DNA of 64,000 bases from the NCBI GenBank assembly GCA_029721435.1, contig CM056592.1:31179111-31243110 (forward strand), given 5' to 3'. Positions within the stretch are counted from its first letter, which is position 1. The number at the start of each line of letters is the position of its first letter. A program made the position numbers and the translations under genes. The notes under the pieces were generated by a model that was given only the letters and a program-made list of their open reading frames with translations, was not told where the DNA came from and did not search any database. Origin of the DNA: Gymnothorax reevesii (taxonomy: Eukaryota; Chordata; Actinopteri; Anguilliformes; Muraenidae). Below, piece by piece: positions 35,701-44,700 of this stretch.

Positions 35701-38700
35701 ATCCCCTAAATGTAACTGAACACCTCAAGGCCAGTTTTGCGAACCTGTTTTATATAAATCGCGTCTATTTTAACCGCGTAATGTGCATAACGTAGACAGG
35801 ATACAACAGCGCATGCTGATACGCATTGGTTTGTATGCTCTGTGTTTGTCCAATCAATGTGTTTCACTTGCTCTAAAATGTTTAAACACTCGGGAATTGG
35901 ATAAGAAACGAGACAATCAATACATTTTTACCAGGGTAGCTTCACGAGAGCATGAAGTGTAACTCTACAATTACGCAGAAGAGCTTGAGTGTATGGTTGA
36001 GTGGTTGGCTATCAACGCCAGTACTCGGGTGGATATAATGAAGCGCTGGATTTGTCAATGAATGGATCTACGTGTAAATCCACGGTAGGGAACAACGAAT
36101 TTTTTTGTATGTGACAACTGTAATTAACAGTAGAATGTGAGAGAATCAATACCATGTCGATTTTTTTGCCTCAGAAAACTGATTTTTCTGAACCATTACT
36201 TGGAATACTGTTGGCTCACTGTGGCTTAGCTGGTTGCTACAGAGGATAACGATTTTTTCTGTGTCAAGATATCGTTTTTTTAAACTGCTGGATCGATACT
36301 ATAGGCAAGGATACTGACCAGTTTGCACATCAGGCTTAGCTGAGGAGTTAAATTCATGCAGCTCTTGAAAAACAGGGCGTGGAGTGAACTTCCCCATATT
36401 CAGAACCGCGTTCGAGGTCTGCTTGCTTGTGAATATTCAATAACTGATCCGGGGGTGCCATTTATTGATCGAGCACAGTAACAGCGTGCTTCCAATTTGC
36501 AGGTCTATAGATGCGGGCGTCTACATCTGCAGAAAGGGGTTAATAATGCCGCAGCATCCAGCTGTCTGTGAAACTAGCTAACATCTTGCTGTTTGATGCA
36601 CAGTATGTTATACTAAGTAGTGGTCTGTGATTGGCCTATTTGGGGCCGTGTCTGGGCGTATGGTCTGGTATCAAATGCGGAGTGTGCTGTTGGGTATGTG
36701 CTGTGGGGAGGTTAAGTGTGTTGTTGGTGGGGAGAGAGTGAGATGTATAACAAAACAGTACCATTCTGAACTTGAATTCAAGATTTTTTGGGGGCACGGG
36801 GGGGACCGGTGGATGAAAAGAATGTTTATTGTTTAAAATTAAACCACGAGGCCTGCATTGTTTTATGGTGGAGGTCTTTTCTCCAGTTGTGTAGCATGTG
36901 ACTGAAAGATCTCGTCTTTTCCCCAGTTAAGGTCATGCCCTTCGCCAACCTGATGGGGCTGCTGAGCTCTGGCACAGACTCCACTGCGGTGCTGCGCTGC
37001 GTACAGCAGGTGGCGATGTTGGTCCAGGGAAACTGGGTTGTGAAAAGGTGAACTGAGCTCTGCTGAAATAACTCATGAACATGGGTGCAGTCATCTTTAT
37101 ATGTTCCCGGTCATATAAAATATTTTTCATTATTCCATTATGCAGCTGATTTAAAATGAAATGCCTCTTGGTATTGTGGGACTTTAGAGGATCTCGCCTC
37201 GTTGGACATGGTGTCCTGTATCTGCTGGGCAATTACCATCCCAGAAAGCAAGAAATTGACACCATCACAGCTGCTACTTTATATGGTGCTCTGGACCTAA
37301 AGCTAATTATATCCCCGAAATACGAGTTTTGGGGATAGCATGGTTTCGCTGCCGTAGCTCCAGATTTTAGCTGTTAGCACGATAACTCGCATGGGCTCGT
37401 TATTTTTAGCATGTGGGTAGATATGGTAGAGAGGATGAACTGATTAGATTTTGGGCAAGTATGCGCTCCAAGGTTTGCCACCCAGTGGCGCTAACCTCAA
37501 ATTTGGCTCATACTGAAGTTCTAGTAAAGGGGAATCTAATAAAGGGGGCTTCGAGGATTGAGGAATTTCGGGAATATAACCCTTACTGTCGGCCGCCGAT
37601 AGCGTTGGCCTAGTTTTTTTTTTATTAAACTTTAAAATAAATTTAATTAAAAAGCCTAATGGATTTGGGTAATTTAAGGAAATGAGCTTGGAACTTGAGG
37701 ACTTGAGCATGGTGACTTTGGTCTGAGGAACAGAGACTGTATATTTACTCAACCTATTGTTTTTCATGTTGGACATTTCTTTATACTTTTAGCTAGGAAC
37801 GTCATTCAAACTGTAAAATGTTAAGCCACGCTCTAATTTTTTTACCGTTCAACTTCTTTGTAACTTCTTTCATTTTCTAATTATTATTTCTTAAATAATT
37901 ATTTTTGCAATTAATTCTGGGAACTTGGTGCTCCTCTGTATCTCCAGTGCTGTTCCTTCGTTAACATGCGCTCCTCTGTATCTCCAGTGCTGTTCCTTCG
38001 TTAACATGCGCTCTCTGTATCTCCAGTGCTGTTCCTTCGTTAACATGCGCTCTCTGTATCTCCAGTGCTGTTCCTTCATTAACATGTGCTCCTCTGTATC
38101 TCCAGTGCTGTTCCTTCGTTAACATGCGCTCTCTGTATCTCCAGTGCTGTCCCTTCATTAACATCCGCTCCTCTGTATCTCCAGTGCTGTTCCCTCGTTA
38201 ACGTGCTCCTCTGTATCTCCAGTGCTGTTCCTTCGTTAAAATGTGCTCCTCTGTATCTCCAGTGCTGTTCCTTCATGAACATGTGCTCCTCTGTATCTCC
38301 AGTGCTGTTCCTTCGTTAACATGCGCCCTCTGTATCTCCAGTGCTGTTCCTTCGTTAACATGCGCTCTCTGTATCTCCAGTGCTGTTCCTTCGTTAACAT
38401 GCGCTCCTCTGTATCTCCAGAGCTGTTCCTTCATTAACATGTGCTCCTCTGTATCTCCAGTGCTGTTCCTTCGTTAACATGTGCTCCTCTGTATCTCCAG
38501 TGCTGTTCCTTCGTTAAAATGTGCTCCTCTGTGTCTCCAGTGCTGTTCCTTCATTAACATGCACTCCTCTGTATCTCCAGAGCTGTTCCTTCATTAACAT
38601 GTGCTCCTCTATCTCCAGTGCTGTTCCTTGGTTAACATGCGCTCTCTGTATCTCCAGTGCTGTTCCTTCATTAACATGTGCTCCTCTGTATCTCCAGTGC

Positions 38701-41700: not shown

Positions 41701-44700
41701 CTATCTCCAGAGCTGTTCCTTCATTAACACGTGCTCCTCTGTATCTCCAGTGCTGTTCCTTCATTAACATGCGGCCCTCTGTATCTCCAGTGCTGTTCCT
41801 TCATTAACATGTGCTCCTCTGTATCTCCAGAGCTGTTCCTTCATTAACATCCGCTCCTCTGTATCTCCAGTTCTGTTCCTTCATTAACATGTGCCCCTCT
41901 GTATCTCCAGAGCTGTTCCTTCATTAAAATGTGCTCCTCTGTCTCTCCAGAGCTGTTCCTTCATTAACATGTGCTCCTCTGTATCTCCAGTTCTGTTCCT
42001 TCATTAACATGTGCTCCTCTGTATCTCCAGAGCTGTTCCTTCATTAAAATGTGCTCCTCTGTATCTCCAGAGCTGTTCCTTCATTAACATGTGCTCCTCT
42101 GTATCTCCAGAGCTGTTCCTTCATTAACATGTGCTCCTCTGTATCTCCAGTGCTGTTCCTTCATTAACATCCGCTCCTCTGTATCTCCAGTGCTGTTCCT
42201 TCATTAACACGTGCTCCTCTGTATCTCCAGTGCTGTTCCTTCATTAACATGTGCTCCTCTGTATCTCCAGTGCTGTTCCTTCAATAACATATGCCCCACT
42301 GTATCTCCAGAGCTGTTCCTTCATTAACATGTGCCCCACTGTATCTCCAGAGCTGTTCCTTCATTAACACGTGCTGCTCTGTATCTCCAGAGCTGTTCCT
42401 TCATTAACATGTGCTCCTCTGTATCTCCAGTGCTGTTCCTTCATTAACATCCGCTCCTCTGTATCTCCAGTGCTGTTCCTTCGTTAACATGTGCTCCTCT
42501 ATCTCCAGTGCTGGTCCTTCGTTAACATGTGCTCCTCTGTATCTCCAGTGCTGTTCCTTCAATAACATATGCCCCACTGTATCTCCAGAGCTGTTCCTTC
42601 ATTAACATGTGCTCCTCTGTATGTCCAGAGCTGTTCCTTCATTAACATGTGCTCCTCTGTATCTCCAGTGCTTTTCCTTCATTAACATGTGCCCCTCTGT
42701 ATCTCCAGTGCTGTTCCTTCATTAACATCCGCTCCTCTGTATCTCCAGAGCTGTTCCTTCATTAACATGTGCTCATCTGTATCTCCAGTGCTGTTCCTTC
42801 ATTAACATGTGCTCCTCTGTATCTCCAGAGCTGTTCCTTCATTAACATGTGCCCCACTGTATCTCCAGAGCTGTTCCTTCATTAACATGTGCCCCTCTGT
42901 ATCTCCAGTGCTGTTCCTTCATTAACATCCGCTCCTCTGTATCTCCAGTGCTTTTCCTTCATTAACATGTGCTCCTCTGTATCTCCAGTGCTGTTCCTTC
43001 ATTAACATCCGCTCCTCTGTATCTCCAGAGCTGTTCCTTCATTAACATGTGCCCCTCTGTATCTCCAGTGCTGTTCCTTCATTAACATGTGCTCATCTGT
43101 ATCTCTAGTGCTGTTCCTTCATTAACATGTGCCCCACTGTATCTCCAGAGCTGTTCCTTCATTAACATGTGCTCCTCTGTATCTCCAGAGCTGTTCCTTC
43201 ATTAACATGTGCTCATCTGTATCTCCAGTGCTGTTCCTTCATTAACATGTGCTCCTCTGTATCTCCAGAGCTGTTCCTTCATTAACATGTGCCCCACTGT
43301 ATCTCCAGAGCTGTTCCTTCATTAACATCCGCTCCTCTGTATCTCCAGTGCTGTTCCTTCATTAACATCCGCTCCTCTGTATCTCCAGTGCTTTTCCTTC
43401 ATTAACATGTGCCCCTCTGTATCTCCAGTGCTGTTCCTTCATTAACATCCGCTCCTCTGTATCTCCAGAGCTGTTACTTCATTAACATGTGCCCCTCTGT
43501 ATCTCCAGAGCTGTTCCTTCATTAACATGTGCTCCACTGTGTCTCCAGAGCTGTTCCTTCATTAACATCCGCTCCTCTGTGTCTCCAGAGCTGTTTCTTC
43601 ATTAACATGTGCTCCTCTGTATCTCCAGAGCTGTTCCTTCACTAACATGTGCTCCTCTGTATCTCCAGTGCTTTTCCTTCATTAACATGTGCCCCTCTGT
43701 ATCTCCAGTGCTGTTCCTTCATTAACATCCGCTCCTCTGTATCTCCAGTGCTTTTCCTTCATTAACATCCGCTCCTCTGTATCTCCAGAGCTGTTCCTTC
43801 ATTAACATGTGCCCCTCTGTATCTCCAGAGCTGTTCCTTCATTAACATGTGCTCCTCTGTATCTCCAGAGCTGTTCCTTCACTAACATGTGCTCCTCTGT
43901 GTCTCCAGAGCTGTTCCTTCATTAGCATGTGCTCCACTGTGTCTCCAGAGCTGTTACTTCATTAACATGTGCTCCTCTGTATCTCCAGTGCTGTTCCTTC
44001 ATTAACATGTGCTCCTCTGTGTCTCCAGAGCTGTTACTTCACTAACATGTGCTCCTCTGTATCTCCAGTGCTTTTCCTTCATTAACATCCGCTCCTCTGT
44101 ATCTCCAGAGCTGTTCCTTCATTAACATGTGCCCCTCTGTATCTCCAGAGCTGTTCCTTCATTAACATGTGCTCCTCTGTATCTCCAGTGCTGTTCCTTC
44201 ATTAACATCCGCTCCTCTGTATCACCAGTGCTGTTCCTTCATTAACATGTGCCCCTCTGTATCTCCAGTGCTGTTCCTTCATTAACATGCACTCCTCTGT
44301 ATCTCCAGAGCTGTTCCTTCATTAACATGCGCCCCTCTGTATCTCCAGTGCTGTTCCTTCATTAACATGCGCCCCTCTGTATCTCCAGTGCTGTTCCTTC
44401 ATAAACATGTGCTCCTCTGTATCTCCAGTGATGTGCTCTACCCGAAGAACAGCTACAGTTCGTTCAGTGGCGTGCCGGCTGAAGTATTGTGTCGAGGACG
44501 GGATTATGTTGTGAGTGTCTGACTCGCCATCCATTTGGGCAGTAGCCTCAGCTCTAAATGAATAGCATGAGGATCGGTAAATAAGCTGCAGTTTTTGCAT
44601 CATGTATAATTTATTGGCTTCTCAAGAAGCACAGTGTTTAATTTTCTGAGTTAAATGGACAGTTTTGCTCCTACACGCTCACCCTGGTCGTATAAGTGTT

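Follow-up and report, generated by a model that had tools for sequence, protein, structure and literature searches.

In the moray eel Gymnothorax reevesii, the POLR3E intron that precedes an 82-nt coding exon is occupied for most of its length by a minisatellite, in which a 40-bp acceptor-like unit is repeated up to the splice junction, and the protein reading frame continues through the AG of the last unit. The array lies in a window of 64,000 nt (assembly GCA_029721435.1, contig CM056592.1, positions 31,179,111–31,243,110, forward strand); positions without a prefix refer to this window, and the POLR3E features described are on its plus strand. We consider it likely that this splice-junction minisatellite grew from the 3' end of the intron and that exon definition selects its last unit.

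The host gene is POLR3E (RPC5), an RNA polymerase III gene, as a sequence-only reading of this DNA had proposed: its joined exons match human RPC5 (7asv_B, PDB) over all 587 residues given (E 1.7e-271), in a comparison that used sixteen exons, the first coding exon being omitted and the last cut at its donor. The encoded protein shares 98% of its residues with its G. javanicus counterpart and 97% with P0002, which comes from a 2867-nt contig. The exon preceding the array (36927..37047), numbered 13 in the earlier reading's own count, ends GTGAAAAG and is followed by gtgaac, and this donor (AAG|GTGAAC) scores 7.6 with the splice matrices applied throughout, which hold Shapiro-Senapathy-like values and not MaxEnt. 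The intron of 7381 nt (37048..44428) leads into the 82-nt exon, number 14 in the same count (44429..44510, SDVLYPKNSYSSFSGVPAEVLCRGRDYV), which begins in phase 2 and is followed by the donor GTT|GTGAGT (44511..44516, score 5.5) of a 370-nt intron. The frame open through the AG at 44428 yields the junction WVVKS|DVLYPK, common to five fish proteins (G. javanicus, Albula, Conger, Anguilla and P0002), and the human equivalent reads WVVKS|DILYPK.

Tandem Repeats Finder (TRF) placed the minisatellite at 37928..44434, by its reckoning 6 nt into the exon, with a period of 40, 163.6 copies and a 90% match, which bears out the earlier claim of about 163 copies and 6.5 kb at 37929..44428. The array fills 6501 of the 7381 nt of the intron (88%) and follows 880 nt of unique sequence (37048..37927), where no degenerate units rose above background (best score 19; background median 17, 95th percentile 25). 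It holds 164 C[CT]AG sites, one for each unit and the last at 44427-44428, at spacings of 40 nt (133), 39 nt (21) and 38 nt (9); every unit has its AG. TTAAC occurs in 131 of the 163 complete AG-to-AG units, the full branchpoint consensus yUnAy in 135 and U-n-A in 156. In 162 of these units, the stretch from the putative branch A to the acceptor is free of any other AG. The complete acceptor geometry ascribed to the unit thus holds for the typical copy but not for the last, which reads TAAAC at the branchpoint.

Besides the AG, six further columns are invariant in the complete units, which differ from one another at a mean of 4.0 of 40 positions and show polarity along the array (mean pairwise difference 4.1 of 40 in units 1-80 vs 3.2 in units 101-163). 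Pyrimidines make up 69% of the array; with regard to a possible PTB sink, its 6.5 kb contain one TCTT and 20 CTCTCT. An origin of the 40-mer from a half-unit gave p 0.06. No copy of the unit was found at other loci with an 80-base query, which returned only this array with 92 matches (one candidate place was scored and very common words were skipped), and a dispersed repeat was rejected as its source because the genome match lies only at the array itself.

Equality of the acceptors and proposed choice of the last unit

The exon acceptor is the last unit of the array, in agreement with the sequence-only reading. This unit (44389..44428) carries the authentic AG at 44427-44428 and the putative branch A at 44405, and it scores 6.9 as an acceptor, a value equalled or exceeded by 139 of the 164 units (the real one counted) and strictly exceeded by 58. 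Unit scores average 7.3 with a minimum of 2.9. The real acceptor ranks tenth among 16 POLR3E acceptors, and its score is reached by 4.1% of the 3336 other AGs of the window that lie outside the array. Since the units match the real acceptor in score, local sequence fails to single it out. Some 160 near-equal acceptors therefore do stand upstream of the real one, as had been claimed, and the pattern named beforehand as contrary to that claim, unit AGs scoring far below the real site, is absent under the matrix used.

Splicing to the upstream units would lead almost always to a premature stop, at most 360 nt past the join, in 162 of 163 cases. The penultimate unit (44349..44388), whose acceptor at 44388 lies 40 nt upstream of the authentic one, has TTAAC and would meet a stop 13 nt past the join. 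The sole upstream unit that remains in frame without a premature stop (44269..44308, acceptor 44308, +120) would add a 40-residue insert. No protein with a tail encoded by the array turned up in a search that yielded eight candidates, none of them scored, which is weak negative evidence.

The array probably arose when the 3' end of the intron, with its branchpoint, pyrimidine tract and AG and perhaps the first exon bases, was duplicated, and would then have expanded to 164 units. Expansion would have been tolerated on the intron side only, since the coding exon keeps the last unit in place. The exon start agrees with the unit start at 7 of 11 positions, compared with 0-5 for the other 15 exons (p 0.013), although another register also fits.

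Exon definition is the simplest selector of the last unit and probably the one at work. In available excerpts of PMC9225289, the switch to exon definition is placed at an intron border of 250 nt, with the sites nearest across the exon favoured, and exons between long introns reach efficient inclusion only if shorter than about 500 nt. The introns flanking the 82-nt exon, of 7381 and 370 nt, both exceed that border. The exon would accordingly be defined by pairing of its own donor at 44511 with the nearest acceptor, and the upstream units would be mostly ignored, despite their local equality, because of this pairing. Under a size limit of about 500 nt, the ten upstream units that fall within that distance would remain rivals. 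Most splicing should then go to 44428 and a minor share to the last decoys, among them 44388, 44348 and 44308; nearly all mis-spliced transcripts would acquire premature stops and be removed by mRNA decay.

RNA structure was rejected as the selector, since low accessibility could damp all units and picks out none. The last 322 nt fold with a z of -1.19, and the unpaired frequency of 8-mers ending at array AGs averages 0.021 (0.011 at the real one), compared with 0.15 in the unique part of the intron and 0.13, 0.02 and 0.06 at three other POLR3E acceptors.

Junction-linked minisatellites in POLR3E and EEF2K

Further arrays adjoin splice junctions in POLR3E and in its neighbour EEF2K, whose identity was confirmed against the PDB. 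In the last POLR3E intron, a 53-bp minisatellite of 16.4 copies (L010:215-1075) stops 18 nt short of the acceptor; the likely branchpoint, TTTTAAC, lies inside it and seems to be supplied by it. In EEF2K, a 53-bp unit is repeated 26.8 times on the donor side, starting at the first intron base (CGG|GTACGA; L032:9112-10000 continuing into L031:1-528, C20:31168222-31169638). The EEF2K frame continues through this donor to the next exon found, a nearby alternative donor leads to a stop, and an exon between the array donor and that next exon is possible. Of the 27 GTACGAG copies in the array, the authentic CGG|GTACGA scores 6.5 and 25 of the 26 others read GCT|GTACGA and score 1.4.

Placement was assessed for the seven intronic arrays of at least five copies found in the 32 introns of the two genes; the ends used for some EEF2K introns deviate by 1-2 nt, and the exon end at 28443 is unplaced. 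With thresholds of 5, 20 and 50 nt set after the arrays were seen, and in a sample as small as two genes, three of the seven arrays come within 20 nt of a junction at one edge (P 1e-4 under random placement) and two within 5 nt (P 3e-4); with the POLR3E acceptor array left out, two of six remain within 20 nt (P 0.0024). By these permutations, the position of the POLR3E array edge at the junction itself goes beyond chance.

Minisatellites are common in this genome, with 30 arrays covering 18.5 kb in 220 kb, a count that varies with TRF settings, which differed between the genome sample and the gene arrays; the sample comprised 22 stretches of 10 kb, of which 20 were taken at a fixed 10 Mb position of C1-C20, not at random, and the remaining 20 kb adjoin the window. 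The length of the POLR3E array is hence unsurprising, and its place and content are the surprise. It is conceivable, although we lean somewhat against it, that minisatellites growing from splice junctions, on both sides, are a genome-wide habit of moray eels that provides a large natural series of duplicated sites. If so, the series would run from weak copies, as in the EEF2K donor array, to full equals, as in the POLR3E acceptor array, and would yield the rule by which the spliceosome treats near-identical sites as well as showing the possible birth of introns and exon ends.

Several other repeats were recorded. An EEF2K intron contains a 41-bp minisatellite of 44 copies (L032:4747-6553) that ends about 115 nt ahead of the next acceptor, and a 35-bp minisatellite of 17 copies with a 97% match (54255-54856) lies deep inside a 24-kb POLR3E intron. 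One of the 10-kb stretches sampled at the fixed position (L022:6-10000) consists almost entirely of a single 37-bp minisatellite of about 270 copies. Elsewhere in the window, a 156-bp unit in four copies (28152-28769) lies inside a 266-aa stop-free frame (28033-28833) and may be part of a dispersed repeat. Between EEF2K and POLR3E, an Rfam tRNA match of 57.3 bits (22173-22254) may mark a tRNA gene or the head of a short interspersed nuclear element. Open frames at 11959-12777 and 58042-59611 resemble what we take to be a Tc1-type transposase and a non-long-terminal-repeat reverse transcriptase, respectively.

Contrary observations and alternative explanations

A number of observations weigh against growth from the junction followed by exon definition. 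On the side of selection, the TAAAC of the real unit departs from the yUnAy consensus fitted by most of its rivals, and with this weaker branchpoint the near decoys should compete well. As far as the text available for PMC9225289 goes, both groups of 3' sites prefer the upstream site overall, the exon-definition class only reducing that preference, and the minigene proof covers 5' sites; minor use of the last few decoys is expected from this upstream preference. The invariance of the decoy AGs gives no separate sign of selection, being inseparable from that of the six other invariant columns, and P0002 would be a transcript judging from its 2867-nt size alone. On the side of origin, the exon-derived part of the unit is weakened by an 8-bp match, ATGTGCTC, that lies in another register; an equal match is reached by 68 of about 5000 random 20-mers, and in local alignment the exon at 24435 attains the same score. 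As for recurrence, the 15 ACAG sites of the array in the last POLR3E intron score at most 5.4 vs 10.9 for the real acceptor, four of the seven arrays sit away from junctions, and when the POLR3E acceptor array is left out the placement test gives P 0.02 at 5 nt (one of six) and 0.012 at 50 nt (two of six).

It therefore has to be considered whether an ordinary intronic minisatellite reached the acceptor by chance and replaced it, its likeness to an acceptor being a by-product of a pyrimidine-rich unit. The abundance of such arrays in the genome sample, one of which nearly fills its stretch, the pyrimidine content of the unit and the weakly supported exon-derived part are all consistent with this account. 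We nevertheless regard it as unlikely, since random placement would seldom put an edge at the junction, as is seen again in EEF2K; a full branchpoint in 135 of 163 copies and an AG in all units also count against it.

It is improbable that the array works as a regulator of POLR3E dose, its poison acceptors serving as a sink through which part of the transcripts would be lost to decay. The stops that follow nearly every upstream acceptor fit such a role, as does the human ABCA7 variable number tandem repeat (VNTR), for which the portions of PMC5954066 at hand describe lower expression and more exon skipping with longer alleles. Stops are expected without selection, however, because an insert keeps the frame at only one length in three and stops are present within the unit, and the empty search for an array-encoded tail, weak as it is, also speaks against this role.

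Recursive splicing uses ratchet sites, which are acceptors inside long introns and require AG|GT. The POLR3E array resembles such systems in offering many acceptors in series within a long intron, and the sequence-only reading had raised serial or recursive use of the units, by which the intron would be removed stepwise. This proposal fared poorly and we consider it very improbable: none of the 164 unit acceptors is an AG|GT, and the sole AGGT of the array (41333..41336) lies off any unit acceptor. The 564 GT sites of the array are almost all very weak donors, the best scoring 4.6 (AAG|GTGCCC, 41335) and the others at most 1.5 bits, far below the 4.2-10.5 of the 16 authentic POLR3E donors.

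An assembly artefact is just as hard to credit, for although tandem arrays are difficult to assemble, cutting the array at its AGs yields 75 distinct pieces, similar units recur in order, 11 in succession at offset 27 and 10 at offset 56 (in 200 shuffles of unit order a run of 10 was reached once and one of 11 never), and the genome was built, according to the accessible part of PMC10387071, with high-fidelity (HiFi) reads of a mean length of 12.62 kb, which exceeds that of the array.

Comparison with known systems

Experiments on splice-site choice mostly set one copied site against another, and studies of this type are cited in the available text of PMC9225289. The POLR3E intron offers a natural test on another scale: this single intron of a core gene contains 164 near-equal acceptors, the last of which carries the native frame. 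Should RNA show that splicing goes to the last unit alone, exon definition would be enough to silence 163 rivals; should other units be used, the error rate would become measurable as a function of distance. The alternative 3' sites treated in that source (PMC9225289, in part) are likewise near-equal rivals with long flanking introns, but come as pairs.

The human ABCA7 intron-18 VNTR, as described in excerpts of PMC5954066, has a 25-bp unit that carries a splice donor and reaches 9711 bp in one allele, with retention of one unit and length-dependent exon skipping. It resembles the POLR3E array as a splice-site-bearing array in an intron beside an exon and differs in gene, sequence and side, the POLR3E array repeating the acceptor at the 3' intron end. 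The EEF2K array, unlike that of POLR3E, begins at a donor.

A close parallel is found in the lancelet 'mirages' of Adh3, the globins BflGb6 and BflGb9, troponin C and PGBD5. The available parts of PMC3087553 and PMC3902484 describe them as minisatellite-like tandem duplications that cross from intron to exon at either the 3' or the 5' side, that in many cases contain AG/GT signals and that reportedly leave splicing undisturbed; the BflGb6 mirage consists of 150-160 bp units, 6 in one haplotype and 3 in the other. Similarly, the POLR3E array touches or spans the junction at 44428|44429 and carries the splice signal of that junction in its unit, so that in anatomy, as read from the sequence, it is a mirage. 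It differs from those of lancelets in its 164 units of 40 bp, in its vertebrate host and in holding branchpoint, tract and AG in most units. The recurrence in EEF2K suggests that vertebrates have mirages too and that a genome-wide count of them is feasible.

The sequence-only reading knew of no described case of this size. That holds for acceptor-side arrays, none of that size having turned up in one open-access library (most subscription papers lie outside that search), but mirages, with few units in the cases consulted, are of the same kind and the ABCA7 donor-side allele is longer. Junction-sited repeats are thus already a known, little-studied kind, of which the POLR3E array is an extreme case; what is new is that a vertebrate has an acceptor array so large and with units so equal, and that other junction arrays neighbour it.

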